Positions 5,508 to 12,925 of a DNA stretch of 34,775 nt are shown piece after piece. Origin of the DNA: a virus. The notes below the pieces were generated by a model that saw nothing but the letters and a program-made list of their open reading frames with translations, was not told the origin of the DNA and did no database searches. The translations under genes and the position numbers were made by a program. Every line of letters begins with the position of its first letter. Positions within the stretch are counted from its first letter, which is position 1. The stretch spans positions 1-34,775 of IMG/VR virus record IMGVR_UViG_3300032053_004246; one strand, written 5' to 3'.

Positions 5508-5535
5508 ATTATATATCTTGCGCAAGATATGTCAA
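5508..5535 (-). promoter_or_regulatory. Near-consensus sigma-70 promoter with palindromic operator in its spacer
   Basis: On the minus strand TTGACA (5535-5530) and TATAAT (5513-5508) match both consensus hexamers exactly, with a 16-base spacer. The spacer is contained in a perfect 18-base palindrome, ATATCTTGCGCAAGATAT (5513-5530). A protein bound there would cover both hexamers. Transcription would start near 5501 and enter the early genes from 5425 leftward. A second, slightly diverged copy of the palindrome is at 5743-5768. Confidence 0.8.
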
Positions 5536-5538
5536 TAA

Positions 5539-5733
5539 TTATTTTATATGATTTTCACTTTTTTTATCGTCTTTAGGTGTTGCAGATATATCCTTGGTTT
5601 TTAAACGTTTTTTGAGTTCTCTGGTTTCGACTGCCAGTTTGGCAATTTCTGATCTACGCTCTGGTGAGAGTTTTGAGGCTCTCAATCTGGCCATTGCTTG
5701 TGCGTGTGGATTTTTTTTATTTTTAGATTTCAT
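5539..5733 (-). CDS. 64-residue basic protein between two operator copies; candidate regulator
   Basis: A very basic protein: the first 10 residues are lysine-rich, then AMARLRASKLSPERRSEIAKLAVETR forms two amphipathic helices, followed by a charged tail. The LSPERRSEIAKLAVETR pattern recalls short helix-turn segments of the kind MTPEERSEIARKAA seen in small phage and plasmid proteins of unknown or DNA-binding role. The two palindromes lie just beyond its two ends: one ten bases upstream of the start, one overlapping the downstream promoter. The start has no clear ribosome site and sits right beside the upstream palindrome, so the message may have a very short leader. That it binds the palindromes is inference; it is the closest gene and the right kind of protein. 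Confidence 0.55.
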   Translation of the reverse strand: MKSKNKKNPHAQAMARLRASKLSPERRSEIAKLAVETRELKKRLKTKDISATPKDDKKSENHIK

Positions 5734-5742
5734 TCTAATATA

Positions 5743-5768
5743 TTGACATCTTGCGCAGGATATGTCAA
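5743..5768. promoter_or_regulatory. Second operator-like palindrome in a divergent gap
   Basis: TTGACAT (5743-5749) and ATGTCAA (5762-5768) are perfect inverted arms around a CTTGCGCAGGAT centre. The core matches the palindrome at 5513-5530 with one change, and the similarity continues through GTCAA-TTATTTTA for nearly 40 bases as a direct repeat. Both arms supply a TTGACA on opposite strands, but no good -10 box follows at 16-18 bases on either strand. It lies between the divergent 64-residue gene and the plus-strand lipoprotein gene. Confidence 0.65.
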
Positions 5769-5813
5769 CATTATTTTAGATTGATAATAAGAAGGCAAGT
5801 AAAAAGCGAATTT

Positions 5814-6254
5814 ATGCTTTATATAAGTTTAATCATTATGGTGTTTCTAACTGGTTGTGGTGGTACACGATGGGAAACCCTGCCAATTGGCATTAAAATT
5901 GAGGATGAAATGCTTGTTGATTCAACAAAACTTGCGGTCAAAGAATTAAATGAAGCCCTTGGTGATGTATTCTACATCGGAGGAAAACAAATTATGATTG
6001 AATGTGGCGGTCTTTCTGATTCTGATAATGAACACGGTCATGCTGAATACGAAGGATTTGATACAATTAATTCTTGTGATATTAGGATAGATTGCGCCTT
6101 TTCACAAGTGAGCCATCTGATTGAACATGAATTATTCCATTGTCTTGGATTTGATGAAAATGATCATGTTGATAATTCAGAGTGTGTTTTCAATCTACCT
6201 GTTGGACAAATTATTTGTCCTGAAATGATTGACCTATTTAATAGCGAATATTGA
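5814..6254 (+). CDS. Lipoprotein with metzincin-like zinc-protease motif (moron candidate)
   Basis: This is the only plus-strand gene in the window. The 146-residue protein starts MLYISLIIMVFLTGC, a short lipoprotein signal with lipobox LTGC (C15), so the mature form should be anchored to a membrane. Near the C-terminus HELFHCLGFDENDH (105-118) gives HExxHxxG and a later His. In metzincins the third zinc ligand is usually three residues after the Gly; here that place is Glu and the His comes three residues further on. A Met in CPEMID (137) could supply the Met-turn. Cysteines at 64, 88, 94, 110, 124 and 135 may form disulphides, consistent with an exported protein. The ribosome site is poor, with AGAAGG about 17 bases upstream. 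The gene is AT-rich and ends 12 bases from the convergent outer-spanin gene. Catalytic activity is inferred from the motif. Confidence 0.7.
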   Translation: MLYISLIIMVFLTGCGGTRWETLPIGIKIEDEMLVDSTKLAVKELNEALGDVFYIGGKQIMIECGGLSDSDNEHGHAEYEGFDTINSCDIRIDCAFSQVSHLIEHELFHCLGFDENDHVDNSECVFNLPVGQIICPEMIDLFNSEY

Positions 6255-6265
6255 GGGGTATTTGA

Positions 6266-6529
6266 TTATCTACACGGCTCCATCTGAGTCTTTACCTGTT
6301 GTAGGCATGTAAGAATATCTGACATATTAGCGTCGTATTTCCTTAACTCTTCCCCCTCGCATTTATTCGGTGCACAGTTCACTTCTCTTAATCCGTTCGT
6401 GAGAATATCGTCTGCACAAGCGGGCATCACGCATTTGAAATTATTTGCTGTTGCTGGGGAGATGACCGGAGCGCAGGCGATTAAGTTCATCACGAGATAG
6501 CTTGTCATTAAGGATGGCATCAGTAACAT
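6266..6529 (-). CDS. Outer-membrane spanin lipoprotein (Rz1-like)
   Basis: An 87-residue protein starting MLLMPSLMTSYLVMNLIAC, a lipoprotein signal with lipobox LIAC (C19). The mature part is short, with several cysteines, and fits an o-spanin that sits in the outer membrane and joins the inner-membrane spanin to fuse the membranes in the last step of lysis. Its start lies inside the inner-spanin gene in another frame, with AGGAGG (6536-6541) seven bases upstream, an unusually clear internal ribosome site. It overlaps that gene by 89 bases and runs 175 bases past its stop, an overlapped Rz/Rz1 layout. It is less proline-rich than lambda Rz1. Confidence 0.8.
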   Translation of the reverse strand: MLLMPSLMTSYLVMNLIACAPVISPATANNFKCVMPACADDILTNGLREVNCAPNKCEGEELRKYDANMSDILTCLQQVKTQMEPCR

Positions 6530-6722
6530 GATGGCCCTCCTGTTCTGCCTTTTCAGCTTCGACAATAGATAGGCGTACTTTTGATTGGTGTTGTAAGACT
6601 TCTGCATTTAAAGCCTTTTCTTGTTTTAGAGCCTCATCAGTTCCCCGACCTTTAAAGTACCAAGTGACTGCAACCGCCACAGCTCCGAGAAACGACAAGG
6701 CCGCTAGGATAATTTGAATCAT
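6441..6722 (-). CDS. Inner-membrane spanin (Rz-like)
   Basis: A 93-residue protein with one N-terminal membrane segment (MIQIILAALSFLGAVAVAVTWYF) followed by a charged helical periplasmic part (ALKQEKALNAEVLQHQ...), the build of i-spanins. It would pair across the periplasm with the o-spanin encoded in the overlapping frame. The start overlaps the holin-candidate stop by ATGA. Length is at the short end for Rz. The order holin candidate, Rz, Rz1 supports the call more than sequence similarity does. Confidence 0.8.
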   Translation of the reverse strand: MIQIILAALSFLGAVAVAVTWYFKGRGTDEALKQEKALNAEVLQHQSKVRLSIVEAEKAEQEGHHVTDAILNDKLSRDELNRLRSGHLPSNSK

Positions 6723-6946
6723 GCCCTGCTTTTTGCATTGAGGCTCAACCCACAGAAAATCAGCAGGCCGTCAAAGATATATCCCTCGATCACTGGATCA
6801 CCGATCCCATAAGCCTTGAGCGCTGAAATGACGGCCATGCCGATAAATCCTAAGATTGACCGTGCACCTTTTAGCTTATTGATTAGAGGAATCGCATCGA
6901 AAGCACCGGCCAGAAAATCAAATATCTGAGCAATTAAACTTTGCAT
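6719..6946 (-). CDS. Small membrane protein, holin candidate
   Basis: A 75-residue protein starting MQSLIAQIFDFLAG with AAAGGAG six bases upstream; an ATG five codons earlier overlaps the previous gene by ATGA and is also possible. Two membrane-capable stretches are visible: around SILGFIGMAVISALKAYGI and around IEGYIFDGLLIFCGLSL. The first 25 residues form an amphipathic helix. Size, two segments and position just before the spanins fit a holin, which would release the endolysin by making holes in the inner membrane. No specific holin family is certain. Confidence 0.65.
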   Translation of the reverse strand: MQSLIAQIFDFLAGAFDAIPLINKLKGARSILGFIGMAVISALKAYGIGDPVIEGYIFDGLLIFCGLSLNAKSRA

Positions 6947-6957
6947 GTATTCTCCTT

Positions 6958-7167
6958 TCATCGTTTCTTACCGCCCCATTCCTTCAAGTGTGAGCCAAGG
7001 ATTTCAAGTGATTCGTTGCTTAAACTCTTCGGCACGTAGGCAGGCGCGGACTTGCCAGACTTTTTTGCGGCATACGCTGCGCCGAATAAACCAGCTTGAC
7101 GCTTGCTTACGATAGGAGTGTGCCTACGTGCTTTCTTTCCTGACTTCTTACAACATGCTCCGGGCAT
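6958..7167 (-). CDS. Small basic protein with KxxRxHTPIVS...LFGAAYA motif
   Basis: A 69-residue lysine-rich protein. The text KKARRHTPIVSKRQAGLFGAAYAAKKSGKSAP resembles a short motif that recurs in many small phage proteins (basic run, HTPI.S..Q..LFGA, Lys/Ser/Pro linker) whose role is not known to me. Two cysteines (CC) stand near the start. AGAAGGAG precedes the ATG, and the stop overlaps the next gene's earlier start. It lies inside the lysis cassette, but nothing suggests a membrane role; it may be a small virion or nucleic-acid-binding protein. Confidence 0.65.
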   Translation of the reverse strand: MPGACCKKSGKKARRHTPIVSKRQAGLFGAAYAAKKSGKSAPAYVPKSLSNESLEILGSHLKEWGGKKR

Positions 7168-7263: not shown

Positions 7264-7460
7264 AAGGCGGGTCGGGGGTCTCGACACTCTCCGACTTTCC
7301 AATCGTAGATATAGATATGTCCTTTGATGAGGGATTTGATACTGCATGCGACGTAGCCGAAGATTGAGCCTTTGAATTCCGGTTCTTTGACTTCATGGCA
7401 TTGATAGTCATAATCCCCGTACACTTTCTGCCATCTACATTTTATTTTGGGTTCGCTCAT
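7251..7460 (-). CDS. Hypothetical small protein after endolysin
   Basis: A 69-residue protein, MSEPKIKCRWQKVYGD at its start, with cysteines at 8, 20, 39 and 58 that could bind zinc (the CHEV and ECRD contexts do not form a standard CxxC ribbon). Beta-strand-like text VACSIKSLIKGHIYIYDW occupies the middle. The start overlaps the endolysin stop by ATGA, which is the main reason to choose this frame over the others open here. No family is recognised. Confidence 0.6.
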   Translation of the reverse strand: MSEPKIKCRWQKVYGDYDYQCHEVKEPEFKGSIFGYVACSIKSLIKGHIYIYDWKVGECRDPRPALWRK

Positions 7461-7894
7461 GCAGGCCACCTGTAACCTAAAACTTTCTGAATGGAGAACC
7501 ATGCCACACTGACAGTGTTCCCTTGATTGCCGCCAAGAATGGCAATGACATCGTCGGGCTTCCGACCCATATAAAAACCAACATGTCCCTGATGCAGATC
7601 GCCACGGGACATAATAACGACACACCCATAGGCCGGAACCTTGATTTCCTTGCCCCACGATAACCATGATCTCGCTTGCGCCGATCCGGTTCCTATTTGA
7701 CCGGCCTTCATCATGCACCAATTCACGTAAGACGAGCACCAAGCGATCTCGTCGTCAGCCGCTTTCAATGTCGTGGTCTTATGGTATTCCAAGATGCGTG
7801 GATTGTTGTTTGACCCCGGAATCTCTGCCTGCCCGAGTTCCGTTTTTGCCATCGCAAGCCAAAGTGGCTCAAATTGTTCGATCACTTCAATCAT
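7457..7894 (-). CDS. Endolysin, TIGR02594-type (NlpC/P60-like) amidohydrolase
   Basis: A 145-residue protein that matches the TIGR02594 phage lysin pattern from end to end: AKTELGQAEIPGSNNNPRIL, then EIAWCSSYVNWCM with the likely nucleophile C53, GTGSAQARSWLSWG, GHVGFYMG with catalytic H104, and ILGGNQGNTVSV with N123 as third residue. Such proteins cut peptide links in peptidoglycan. There is no signal peptide, so export to the wall needs the holin. The start overlaps the upstream gene by four bases. The length is normal for a single-domain lysin, with no wall-binding domain, as is usual for phages of Gram-negative hosts. Confidence 0.85.
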   Translation of the reverse strand: MIEVIEQFEPLWLAMAKTELGQAEIPGSNNNPRILEYHKTTTLKAADDEIAWCSSYVNWCMMKAGQIGTGSAQARSWLSWGKEIKVPAYGCVVIMSRGDLHQGHVGFYMGRKPDDVIAILGGNQGNTVSVAWFSIQKVLGYRWPA

Positions 7895-8100: not shown

Positions 8101-8387
8101 TTGCCCATCATTTCCTTTTTGAATCCGTTTCTGTCCATATCCTCGCTGGCCTTCTCAAAGACGCTTTTCTTGGCCGTTGCGTAGGCCCCTTTTTGAAACA
8201 TCTTTTTCAAGTCCGGCGGAAGTTCGTCCGCGTTCATCACCACTTCTTCGCTCTTGTATTTGCTCTCTTTCCCTTCGCCTTCATTCCACGACCGATTGAA
8301 TATGTATTTCCCATCGTCGGTCTGCCTGATTGAAACTGATACTTTGTCATCCATACTCCCTCTTATTGGTTGTGATATGTCATTCAT
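8097..8387 (-). CDS. Hypothetical protein downstream of the large internal protein
   Basis: A 96-residue, highly charged protein. The start at 8387 overlaps the large gene's stop by ATGA and has AGGAGG seven bases upstream; a second ATG at 8354, preceded by AGAGGG, would drop 11 residues. Beta-like text VSVSIRQTDDGKYIFNRSWNEG leads, then a Lys/Asp-rich helix. No family is recognised. Confidence 0.65.
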   Translation of the reverse strand: MNDISQPIRGSMDDKVSVSIRQTDDGKYIFNRSWNEGEGKESKYKSEEVVMNADELPPDLKKMFQKGAYATAKKSVFEKASEDMDRNGFKKEMMGK

Positions 8388-11300
8388 GCTTGGCCTCCTG
8401 CCTCTATGATCTGATCAAGGACTTTCTCCGAGACGATCTTCTTTTTATAGAGATCGCTGATGTATTCAAATTTCTGCTCCGGCGTCATGGGCGCGATCTT
8501 CTTCAAGATGAATTGCGTGCGTGCGCCGTTCTCTACGCCAAGCTGCTTAATCTGTGTTTCAATCCAGCTCACGCCTTTCTGTTTGTCCTCAAGCATTTCA
8601 AGCGCTTTATCGAAAACCGGCTCGTCGGCCTGCAGTAGTTTCTCGAAACGCGCTGACTTTTCTTCCGGCTTGAGCGTGTCAATCCCTTCGATGAAATCCT
8701 TGGCCTTCTGAAATACGATAGTCCGCTCGTCGGCCTGTTCTGTGACTGCGGCTTGTATTTCCTTCTCGTCGGCCTGCTGATTGACAACGCCGGACCTGAA
8801 AAATCTCTTTGCCGCCGGATATTTCACATAAGCGGGCCTGCCCTTCTCCGGCTTGCCTACTGTAAATTGAGTAAGCCCGCCGCCAGTAAGTGAGCCGACC
8901 AGTTGCTCAAGTTTAAGCGGGGATAATCCACCCTTCTTTTTACCTGCCTCGTCTGTGGTCGTGAATAGATCGCCGACCTTTTTGAATATCTCCGGCGTTG
9001 TTCCTTTTGATTGCAGATAAGGCGAAGCGTTTTTGAGACGTTCCGGCACGACGTTCTGATGGAAAAACATATTGCGATTTGTCGCGTATTCTACCGGTGC
9101 TTTGAGTATCGGGTTCATAGAGCCGATCACGCTTTCCGTGCGCTCCTGCATATTCTCGCCGCTGATGTTGATAGGCGATATGTTTTCAAAGAAATCGACC
9201 GCGTATTTGCCAAGCGCTGCAGCATCTTTCTTGTGTGCAAATTCAACTGACGCCTCGATTAAATTTGCAAATAACTGCGCTGTCTCTCTTTTCGGTATGC
9301 GGTAGTAATCGCGTATCTTCCGCCCTTCGTCGTCCTCAAAGTATTTCGGCTGACCGTTTTCTTCGTAGCGCGGAATCATCCAATAGCGTTTGCGTTCTTC
9401 GTCCGGCACTTCGTAGTAGTCCTTCATGTTCTCATCTGAAAAATTCTGCATGGCTAAAGCAAGCGTCGGAAGTCCGACTACTGTGGCAAGGCGGGCCCAC
9501 GCCGTCGTTGCTTCCTTGCGTCCTGTCCGTCCTGCTAATCGTGCGAAGTCCGAAGCGGCACCTTGCACGCGAGCGTTTAAAAACATGAATAACAAGTTGC
9601 CCTGCTTGGTGAGATTGCCGTGGCGTGCGAAATCAGGACTGCCGGAAAAGTTGCGCACTTCCGTCACGATCTCTGCGAGTTTCTCTCGCGCCTGTTCCGG
9701 CGTCATTTTGTCCAGTCCCTCGATGCGCATACCGCGTTTGAAGCCAAGTAGCTTTGTCGTTTCCTCGACGGCATTTGAGAATTTAGCGACGTTATCGAGT
9801 ATCACGGTTTTCGGTGTTTTAAGGAATCTGGCCCCGCGTTCGCCCCAAGTTTTCTTGCCCTTGATATTCAGCGTTTCTTTGAACGCGCTCGGTGTTAGCT
9901 CGCGCTGAATTGTGGAGTTCGCCGCGCCGCTTTTCAGGAAATCCATGTAGAGTTTATTCGGCTTGCCGAAGTTTCCGGTCATGGAGCTATAAAGCGAATA
10001 TATCCAGTCGGACGGGAATCGAATCAAGTCGGACGGTTTCTTAATGCCATACTTCGAGATCAGAGCTTGGCGCGGTAGATCGGCAAACCATAGGTTGACG
10101 ACCTGAAATCCTGCGTTTGCTCCGGTCGCACCCCACCTGAACGGCTGCGCTGCCAATGCGGCGGCTTTGCTCATAATACCTGCTTGCGTCTTGTTCAATC
10201 CCTCAATGGCCTTCGCAACTTCCTTGTTGACGGCCATGTATTTCTTCTCGCCGTTCTCAAGGTAAGCGACTTTCTCGAATCCCTGCGCTGGCGCTTCGCC
10301 TTCTTCGAGCACCTTGATTGCCTCACCGTTCTTATCGACTGCGGCGACCTTGCCAAGTTCCTGCATTTTCAGGTTCTTCTCGGCGAGTATGCGCGACTTC
10401 ACGATGTTTTCCGCGCTGGCCTGCAGCATATTGCCAAGTTTGAAATCCTCGGATGATATGCCGGTGATCTTCTTCGTCAGGTCTTGTGTTGTGGCGATTT
10501 TCTTGCCGGTGCCTGCTATCCCCTCGAAGTCCTCCATGTATTTCATCACCTTGAACGGCGCGTAAAAGTCGTTGCTCTCTTTTATCGCCTTGTAGAGTTC
10601 CTCGCTCATGCGGCCGGAATCGACCTGCAATCGCAGGGCTTTGTCCATCTGCGATTGATATGCCTTCGCTTGCTTCTCTACGAGCTTGTAGTTTTCGGCT
10701 CCGAGTTTCCGGCGTAAGCCGTCCAAGCCCGCACGGGTTTCGTCAAGCGTCCAGTTCGCCACCTTCTTCGCCTCTGGGTCGGTGCGCAACCGGCTCTCCG
10801 TGCGTTTCAAGAAAAGATACTTTTGGAAATCGTCTGCAATCCTGCTGATCGGGTCTATGACTGACTTCTGAAATTCAATCACGTCTGCTTGCGTCTTGCC
10901 TGCCGCGCCTGCAATCTGCTCGAATTTTCGGCCTAGCTCAAGCGCTGGCTTCTTTATGCCCGCCTGCGCATACACGTCGCGTTCAAGATGCGTGAGCGGT
11001 GCGTATTCGGAAGTTAGCTCCGTCTGCGCCTTGCGGAAAAAGTCGCGTGTCCGCTCCTTTGTAAAAAACCCCGCTTTCTCTGCAGGGCTGAAAACCCTCT
11101 CGGCTTTATCAAGCGCCGCTTGCTCTTTCGGTAAGGGCCTACCTTGCGGCTTGAATCGCTCGCGTTCTAAAAGTGTTTTCGCGCCGGGAAACATCTCGAT
11201 AGCAGTCGCGCCCTTTTCGGATTTCAGCGTTTTGAAAAAACTGCCAAGCACGCGGTCGATAGTTCCGGCCTTCGTCTTTCCCTTCGCACTCTGGAAAAAG

Positions 11301-12925
11301 ACTTTATCACCTTGTTTGAATTCGGTTATCTGTGTGCCCTTCCGATAGTCCACTACGGCGTCACGCATCTGGCGTGTTGCAACTTCGCGTGTAAGGTCGC
11401 CGTTCATGTAGGCGTTGGTTATTTCGGCATACTTCTGACCGTCATATTTCGTATTGTCTAAGAATTTGGCAATATCTGCCTCGGCGAAACCGCCAAGTTT
11501 CTGCGCGTCCGCGACAAGACCGAATTGCGTCTCAAGGAATTTGGGTGTGTGTGGAATTTCTTTTACAGGAACGCGACCATTTTCCGCCAAATTCCCAGCG
11601 GGTTCTTGTCGAACGCCTCCAAAAAACCCGGCTTCCGCGCCAACTCGGCCTTCCGGCGTTGCAGGCGGCACCAACCGTTCTGGTTCCAGAGGTACTCGAA
11701 CGCCTCCGATTCCTTCTGGCTCACCTGTCTGTACTCTTGATGCTCGACCGACTTCACGTAGTACATTACCGACCCCCTCAACTACTTTTGCCAATTCGGC
11801 TTCTTTACCCATATTATAGCTTGTTTCAGTCTGCGCTGGCAATGCCCTTTTCCAAGGCTGGGCAAAGAATGGGTCGGTAGGGGCTGCCGGTGCGATTGTA
11901 GGCCCGGAAGGGCCTCCACTTAAATCAGCGGGCAATCTGATTGCCGGAGCAGGCGCGGGTCTGACGTATCGCCGCACCGGCTCGACGTAAGGTTCGGCTG
12001 CCATTGTGGCTGCTTGCGGTGGCGTGCCTTCTGCTTCCCGCCCGAAAAGATACTCACGCTCAATCTGGGCTTTCTGATCTAGGACCCCTTCGCGAATCGC
12101 CTGCTCTTTGGCGGCCGCACGTGCTTCGATTGCCGCTGGCGCACCCGCCCTGCTTTCTGCTATCGTCTGCCCTATCTTCTCGATGAATGGATGTTGTGCG
12201 CCTTCGCTTGGCCCCATAGCGCCCAGCCCGCCCAGAGTCACGCCGGAGCTTACTATGTCTGAAACGTCGCCGCCTTCTGCAGCCGCTTGTGCGGAGCCAT
12301 AAGCGCCGGTGCTTGCAACGCGGGTCGGCATATTGTAGCCGCTTACACCGTGCAGGGCTTTGCCAAACATGACGCCTTTAAGAAATGCTTCGCCTGCCGC
12401 TGCTGGTCCTTGATCTGCCGCCGAGAGCGCGTCCATAGCGCCCATGCCAACCGGCCCAGCGGCACCGCCAAGCGTGTATTTTGCAATCGCGCCCGGCGCG
12501 GCACCCACACCTTCGTAAATCTTTGCCATTGTCGGGCTATAAGCAGCCATGCGCGGCGGTTCCTTCGGCGCGACTGCCTCTGCTTGACCGCTCATGTAGT
12601 TCCCAATTTGGGAATAAATATCTTCGGCGCCCTGTGTGGCTGGGTTTATGCGTGCGTTCACGCCCGCCACTTTGCCAAGTAGCCCGCTGACATTCGCGCC
12701 AGTATGCCATAGATCGGCGAAGCTCGATAAGACACCCTTGCCAAGCGCCTCGCCTGTATCGGATAGTCCTGTGCCGAGATCGGTTGCAGCGCGACGTATC
12801 AAGCCGGGCTTGGGTGGCGGTTCGGTTTCTGCAAGGTAAGCGTCTGGGTCGAATTCCGCAAGGTAAGCGTCGGGATTGAAACCCGTCTCTTTCTCTTTAA
12901 GGTATTCATCGGGATTGAAACCCAT
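8384..12925 (-). CDS. Very large putative internal virion/ejection protein (LPD38-like)
   Basis: A 1513-residue protein, by far the largest here. It opens with three copies of an NPDxYL-type motif (FNPDEYL, FNPDAYL, FDPDAYL) within 33 residues. A Gly/Ala-rich part (roughly 100-260) with membrane-active-looking helices follows, then long charged helices (about 570-820), and a C-terminal half containing LFMFLNARVQGAASDFARL and a YYRIPKRE segment. The last part resembles the large polyvalent-protein-associated domain LPD38 found in giant phage internal proteins; I cannot confirm this without a profile search. Proteins of this size at the end of a podovirus structural cluster usually sit inside the capsid and leave with the DNA to make a channel through the cell envelope. 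I see no lysozyme or transglycosylase catalytic motif. The start at 12925 lacks a good ribosome site. Confidence 0.75.
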   Translation of the reverse strand: MGFNPDEYLKEKETGFNPDAYLAEFDPDAYLAETEPPPKPGLIRRAATDLGTGLSDTGEALGKGVLSSFADLWHTGANVSGLLGKVAGVNARINPATQGAEDIYSQIGNYMSGQAEAVAPKEPPRMAAYSPTMAKIYEGVGAAPGAIAKYTLGGAAGPVGMGAMDALSAADQGPAAAGEAFLKGVMFGKALHGVSGYNMPTRVASTGAYGSAQAAAEGGDVSDIVSSGVTLGGLGAMGPSEGAQHPFIEKIGQTIAESRAGAPAAIEARAAAKEQAIREGVLDQKAQIEREYLFGREAEGTPPQAATMAAEPYVEPVRRYVRPAPAPAIRLPADLSGGPSGPTIAPAAPTDPFFAQPWKRALPAQTETSYNMGKEAELAKVVEGVGNVLREVGRASRVQTGEPEGIGGVRVPLEPERLVPPATPEGRVGAEAGFFGGVRQEPAGNLAENGRVPVKEIPHTPKFLETQFGLVADAQKLGGFAEADIAKFLDNTKYDGQKYAEITNAYMNGDLTREVATRQMRDAVVDYRKGTQITEFKQGDKVFFQSAKGKTKAGTIDRVLGSFFKTLKSEKGATAIEMFPGAKTLLERERFKPQGRPLPKEQAALDKAERVFSPAEKAGFFTKERTRDFFRKAQTELTSEYAPLTHLERDVYAQAGIKKPALELGRKFEQIAGAAGKTQADVIEFQKSVIDPISRIADDFQKYLFLKRTESRLRTDPEAKKVANWTLDETRAGLDGLRRKLGAENYKLVEKQAKAYQSQMDKALRLQVDSGRMSEELYKAIKESNDFYAPFKVMKYMEDFEGIAGTGKKIATTQDLTKKITGISSEDFKLGNMLQASAENIVKSRILAEKNLKMQELGKVAAVDKNGEAIKVLEEGEAPAQGFEKVAYLENGEKKYMAVNKEVAKAIEGLNKTQAGIMSKAAALAAQPFRWGATGANAGFQVVNLWFADLPRQALISKYGIKKPSDLIRFPSDWIYSLYSSMTGNFGKPNKLYMDFLKSGAANSTIQRELTPSAFKETLNIKGKKTWGERGARFLKTPKTVILDNVAKFSNAVEETTKLLGFKRGMRIEGLDKMTPEQAREKLAEIVTEVRNFSGSPDFARHGNLTKQGNLLFMFLNARVQGAASDFARLAGRTGRKEATTAWARLATVVGLPTLALAMQNFSDENMKDYYEVPDEERKRYWMIPRYEENGQPKYFEDDEGRKIRDYYRIPKRETAQLFANLIEASVEFAHKKDAAALGKYAVDFFENISPINISGENMQERTESVIGSMNPILKAPVEYATNRNMFFHQNVVPERLKNASPYLQSKGTTPEIFKKVGDLFTTTDEAGKKKGGLSPLKLEQLVGSLTGGGLTQFTVGKPEKGRPAYVKYPAAKRFFRSGVVNQQADEKEIQAAVTEQADERTIVFQKAKDFIEGIDTLKPEEKSARFEKLLQADEPVFDKALEMLEDKQKGVSWIETQIKQLGVENGARTQFILKKIAPMTPEQKFEYISDLYKKKIVSEKVLDQIIEAGGQA

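Follow-up and report, generated by a model that had tools for sequence, protein, structure and literature searches.

A lone plus-strand gene in an incomplete phage contig encodes a predicted lipoprotein with a divergent matrixin-like domain

The only plus-strand gene of a phage contig (5814–6254) probably encodes a lipid-anchored envelope protein that is built like a matrix metalloprotease, as judged from its sequence and its predicted structure. The window that we analyzed was the whole IMG/VR record IMGVR_UViG_3300032053_004246, an incomplete phage contig of 34,775 nt. On balance, we lean toward the reading that the gene is an acquired moron and that its product is an envelope-anchored lipoprotein whose matrixin-like zinc-protease domain is small and divergent. 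We put proteolytic activity of the lipoprotein at about an even chance.

The CDS (5814..6254, +) was annotated from its ORF, coding statistics, hhalign and AlphaFold2 as a predicted lipoprotein of 146 aa with a matrixin-like domain, and its 146 codons specify MLYISLIIMVFLTGCGGT...HELFHCLGFDENDHVDNSECVFN. A frame of this length did not occur in any of 5000 simulated sequences (first-order, with the local dinucleotide make-up). The GC content by codon position was 0.52/0.30/0.22, as is typical of a coding gene rich in AT. By codon usage, frame 0 was the best of the six, yet it scored below the phage's own genes (negative score against phage usage). That is, ORF 5814–6254 is a genuine gene and no chance frame. 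Its GC3 of 0.22, compared with 0.42–0.62 in the large genes of the phage that we took as examples, fits the expectation for a recently acquired moron. In addition, it was the sole convincing plus-strand gene, with every other credible gene on the minus strand. The other long plus-strand ORFs were all antisense to good minus-strand genes; therefore, the statement of the earlier note that this is the only plus-strand gene stands.

The lipobox that the same note had read is present as LTGC at residues 12–15 (5847..5858, +). It follows a hydrophobic stretch (IIMVFLTGC, residues 7–15) and fits the pattern [LVI][ASTVI][GAS]C, with Cys15 as the would-be lipidated residue and Gly at +2, leaving a Cys-rich mature protein of 132 aa. 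The n-region carries no positive charge when translation starts at the ATG at 5814, and a charged n-region is obtained from the in-frame TTG at 5781. A possible ribosome-binding site, AGAAGG (5790..5795, +), is separated from the ATG by a rather long distance of 18 nt. In enterobacteria-like hosts, Gly at +2 directs lipoproteins to the outer membrane by the Lol rule, which predicts outer-membrane sorting here if the host is of this kind.

We searched with the single protein against Pfam, PHROGs, PDB sequences, phages, plasmids, and viral and genome contigs and found no relative. When the active-site helix was instead sought with degenerate DNA patterns, viral and bacterial contigs yielded HExxHC proteins, including phage proteins that Pfam recognizes as Peptidase_M10. 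The exact HExFHCLGF pattern matched no viral contig, patterns from the two-row alignment A1 were poor and found nothing, and a GFD-specific pattern gave chance frames mostly, but it recovered protein L045 too. An HMM was then built from 13 phage and bacterial matrixin-like proteins. Since this set had been selected by motif, we used two controls that keep the motif. The lipoprotein scored 27.9 bits, whereas the maximum among 500 motif-keeping shuffles was 23.4, and none of 3000 real protein segments into which HELFHCLGF was grafted at the same place scored as high (maximum 24.9, mean 12.6, sd 2.9). True members that were left out one by one mostly scored 58–100, indicating that the lipoprotein is a very divergent relative. 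The hhalign probability was 97.4% over mature residues 3–102, and this probability and the grafted controls together argue for remote matrixin-like homology. The profile of the 13 relatives had karilysin and MMPs as its first PDB matches. Thus, the profile search against metzincin families that had been proposed gave a divided answer: the single protein matched no Pfam family, PF00413 (Peptidase_M10) included, but it resembles the 13-protein matrixin-like profile, and its remote relatives do match PF00413.

AlphaFold2 with the 13-row alignment gave a model with pLDDT 82 and pTM 0.80, in which the elements follow the order E-H-E-E-E-E-H-H; this alignment is shallow, was assembled by us and may pull the model toward the matrixin fold. 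The top PDB matches of the aligned model in Foldseek were MMP-10, proMMP-7, proMMP-9 and MMP-1 (TMq 0.59–0.65, best E 4.8e-4), and the matches in BFVD were a phage M10 protein and a Lactobacillus phage Zn-dependent protease. These values point to a zincin fold in a model that depends on the supplied alignment. The single-sequence AlphaFold model had pLDDT 39 and found nothing in Foldseek. The element order (helix, strands, active-site helix, C-terminal helix) agreed between the single-sequence and aligned models. Residues 103–116 had pLDDT below 50; that is, Glu115, His118 and the Met-turn equivalent (mature residues 101 and 104 onwards) are placed in an unconfident loop, and a check of His/Glu clustering in the predicted fold met this same loop.

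The active site combines conserved and altered residues. HELFHCLG at residues 105–112 (6126..6149, +), identified from sequence and alignment, is the HExxHxxG zinc-binding and catalytic motif (H105, E106, H109, G112) that had been claimed for this protein. The spacing to the third ligand is indeed unusual: metzincins have His or Asp at motif position 11, and Glu115 (6156..6158, +) stands there, where aligned relatives carry His. The next His is His118 (6165..6167, +) at position 14, three residues past the canonical one, and is a displaced candidate for the third ligand. Ser-Glu-Cys at residues 122–124 (6177..6185, +) aligns with the Ser-x-Met of the Met-turn, so that the Ser is kept and Cys124 occupies the Met column. 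In addition, Phe108 falls in a column where relatives carry Gly (the residue after the HE region). Cys88 (6075..6077, +), recognized by comparison with relatives, lies 17 residues ahead of HExxH on a predicted edge strand (CDI); many of the phage and bacterial relatives have, along with the Cys after HExxH, an edge-strand Cys 14–21 residues before HExxH, a feature that was not built into the search. This Cys could form a disulfide with the Cys after HExxH, which would suit a periplasmic protein. The description of the protein as metzincin-like therefore holds for the fold at the level of remote homology and fails by the strict definition, as the third His/Asp and the Met-turn Met are absent from the aligned columns; read from its sequence, the lipoprotein is not a bona fide metzincin by motif (HExxHxxGxxH/D plus Met-turn). 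It may nevertheless work like one despite these changes, and with a loop extended by three residues, His118 could take the place of the third ligand.

The third-ligand Glu and the Met-turn Cys also mean that the lipoprotein may be inactive. A catalytically dead, matrixin-derived lipoprotein would act by binding, for example by covering a receptor or by engaging a protein of the envelope, and the replacement of both diagnostic positions outside HExxH, as well as of the Gly after HE by Phe, is what such a pseudoprotease might show. However, dead enzymes usually lose HExxH first; in this protein HExxHxxG and its general base are preserved, and a zinc site could yet be completed by the Glu or by His118 in its displaced position. 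We therefore consider the pseudoprotease somewhat unlikely.

We examined the setting of the gene. The left end of the contig (1–299, −) interrupts a gene for a lambda-type replication protein O (PF04492, E=1.2e-21), and the phage genome is therefore incomplete there; neither an integrase nor a repressor was found within the 34.8-kb contig, and the missing integrase says little for the same reason. A leftward early operon on the left encodes an HNH protein and a Cas4/RecE-like nuclease, the truncated replication protein O also marks this side as the early region, and a CHAP-domain endolysin, identified by database search (7457..7894, −), lies on the right, in agreement with the position between lysis cassette and early region given in the earlier note. 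The neighbors convergent with the lipoprotein gene (6266..6961, −) were assigned from a weak PHROG match and inspection: a Rz1-like lipoprotein with a LIAC lipobox (6266–6607, −, by inspection), whose frame is nested within that of a Rz-like protein (6441–6722, −, by inspection and a PHROG match with E=0.11 only), and a holin-like protein (6719–6961, −, by inspection). Only 11 bp separate the Rz1-like gene from the ORF at 5814–6254. Judging by the spanin pair, the host would be Gram-negative. Searches with the terminase, the portal and a 1513-aa late protein found no close kin of the phage, the terminase being 27–32% identical to those of many phages, so that no empty insertion site could be compared. 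This 1513-aa protein (8384–12925, −) has an LPD38 polyvalent-protein domain (PF18857) near its C-terminus. At the six loci that we compared, the relatives of the CHAP endolysin (L002–L016) shared no further gene, and no matrixin was found in the five of their records that were searched.

Two operator-like palindromes were found by motif search. O1, ATCTTGCGCAAGAT (5515..5528), fills the spacer of a consensus sigma-70 promoter of the leftward early operon (5508..5535, −; TTGACA-16-TATAAT, 12/12 in a promoter search). O2, ATCTTGCGCAGGAT (5748..5761), lies in the spacer of a putative promoter directed toward the lipoprotein gene (5743..5771, +); the 34.8-kb window has no zero-mismatch copies of the motif besides O1 and O2. 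We inferred this promoter from TTGACA (5743–5748), a 17-nt spacer ending in TGT and CAACAT (5766–5771); it would be of the extended −10 type, its −10 matches the consensus at only 3/6 positions, and the promoter is weak by consensus. The two palindrome copies (ATCTTGCGCARGAT) flank a gene for a 64-aa basic protein (5539..5733, −; ORF), each between the −35 and −10 of a promoter, and this gene is divergent from the lipoprotein gene. The 64-aa protein had no family and no structure match, and as these searches were blank we dropped it as a candidate repressor. The palindrome pair looks like operators of a phage repressor, and from the shared motif one regulator may serve both the early promoter and the promoter of the lipoprotein gene.

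The low GC3, the lone strand and the putative promoter of its own point to a moron-like insertion, in line with the suggestion that the gene is a moron. As an autonomous insert, its compositional mismatch and lone strand are seen directly and its promoter is putative; neither a terminator nor a notable RNA fold was found at its 3' end.

The place of the gene beside the Rz/Rz1-like genes and the CHAP endolysin raises the alternative of an accessory lysis protein, that is, a protease of the envelope that would assist in cell opening by the spanins or the endolysin, and the phage-derived Mtz/Tim of Listeria sensitizes cells to lysins (PMC8235301). However, the gene is on the opposite strand and hence off the late transcript, its putative promoter contains the early-operon operator, a normal spanin pair is already encoded, and the matrixin gene on another phage contig (L068) has no lysis genes beside it in the stretch that was read; we regard a role in lysis as improbable. 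That the protein is an orphan lipoprotein of a different fold with an accidental HExxHxxG agrees with the lack of family matches in standard searches, with the empty fold search of the single-sequence model and with the tendency of alignment-driven AlphaFold models to lean to the fold of the alignment, but it is more doubtful still, because none of the 3000 grafted controls reached the profile score of the lipoprotein, the hhalign match spans 100 residues and so is not confined to the motif, and the element order agrees between the two models.

For the anchored matrixin-like protein that we favor, the following course can be proposed. The protein would be exported by Sec, lipidated at Cys15 and retained in the outer membrane, the +2 residue not being Asp, and would fold with disulfides in the periplasm. 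Zinc would be bound by His105 and His109 plus Glu115 or His118, with Glu106 as the general base, and a host envelope protein would be cleaved. Since its putative promoter holds an early-operon operator, the gene would be expressed from this promoter under the early-operon repressor, which would place its expression in early infection or at induction and not alongside the late lysis genes. By analogy with Mtz/Tim of Listeria, the effect would probably be on the host surface or wall, as an altered receptor or a weakened wall. A stronger version, which we think has little chance of being right, makes the lipoprotein part of a new metzincin-derived subgroup, namely, an anchored protease with a Glu or displaced His as third zinc ligand and Cys for the Met-turn Met, which a shared operator would turn on along with the early operon and which would trim proteins of the host surface against rival phages.

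Membrane-anchored metzincins had been supposed to be rare in phages. This was not supported: a single degenerate pattern brought up nine or more distinct matrixin-like proteins that carry an anchor or are lipoproteins, and M10 phage proteins are named in BFVD. In viral contigs, the first pattern gave TM-anchored proteins (L022, L023, L024, L032, L040 and L041) and proteins with a probable lipobox (L019, L020 and probably L036). The TM-anchored proteins L022, L023, L032, L040 and L041 are from large phage contigs (150–390 kb) and share HELGHCLGLAHDD and the edge-strand Cys. Small HExxHC lipoproteins were found in phages (L033 and L045) and, of the same type, in a bacterial contig (L048). On L068, an unrelated 38-kb contig of the L020 phage (also L026, L027 and L029), the lipoprotein matrixin (6088–6735, −) is the only reversed gene of about 16 in 14 kb, which matches the arrangement at 5814–6254; in L024 and L036, the matrixin gene is co-directional with its neighbors. 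Two adjacent proteins of L068 (8390–9282) consist nearly entirely of Gly/Asp/Asn/Tyr/His dipeptide-like repeats (GYGNGHGDGDG). The lone reversed AT-rich gene is thus an unusual variant of anchored phage proteases and not a unique find.

Anchored matrixin-like proteins occur here and there in phages that are not related to one another, in some cases as a single reversed insert. Knowing their substrates would reveal whether proteolysis is a means by which phages remodel the host envelope. In the literature searched, we found no functional studies of such phage proteins apart from the phage-derived Listeria pair. An active lipoprotein would amount to a metzincin-type enzyme that lacks two supposedly defining residues, and to a direct test of how necessary the third His and the Met-turn are.

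Finally, we compared the lipoprotein with known systems. In the anchored phage matrixins (L019, L020/L066/L068, L022, L023, L024, L032, L036, L040 and L041), as in the lipoprotein, the N-terminus carries an anchor (a lipobox or a TM segment) and the matrixin-like domain comes after it; HExxHC is common to all, and the edge-strand Cys occurs in several of them. Unlike the lipoprotein, these proteins keep HExxHxxGxxH/D and Ser-x-Met, and pairwise identity is only 17–25%. L033, L045 and L048 (HExxHCxGxH) share its lipobox, an edge-strand C-x-[IV] and HExxHCxGF, L033 with 34% identity over the aligned part, but they differ in a much shorter N-terminal part (about 80–110 aa) and a normal third His. 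With matrixins (PF00413 Peptidase_M10; karilysin and MMP catalytic domains) it shares the helix/strand order, HExxHxxG and a C-terminal helix after the Met-turn region, and it differs in its Glu for the third His, its Cys for the Met-turn Met, its shorter length (132 aa mature), its many Cys residues and its lipid anchor. Ltp of phage TP-J34 is not known to carry a protease motif. The likeness to Ltp and other superinfection-exclusion lipoproteins of temperate phages is that of a phage-encoded, lipid-anchored accessory protein (PMC3952083). The Listeria pair of the metzincin Mtz and the lipoprotein Tim is of phage origin, has a CI/Cro-type switch and alters the Listeria wall, sensitizing the cells to phage lysins (PMC8235301). 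We rejected a TIMP-like partner for our lipoprotein, as none is encoded next to it, the Rz1-like lipoprotein aside. In Listeria, Mtz is secreted, has the canonical HExxHxxGxxH/D and Met-turn, acts in a Gram-positive host and has its lipoprotein as a separate TIMP-like partner (Tim); what the two would have in common is a phage-borne, extracytoplasmic metzincin-type protein at the host envelope, where the action on the envelope is that of Mtz (PMC8235301).
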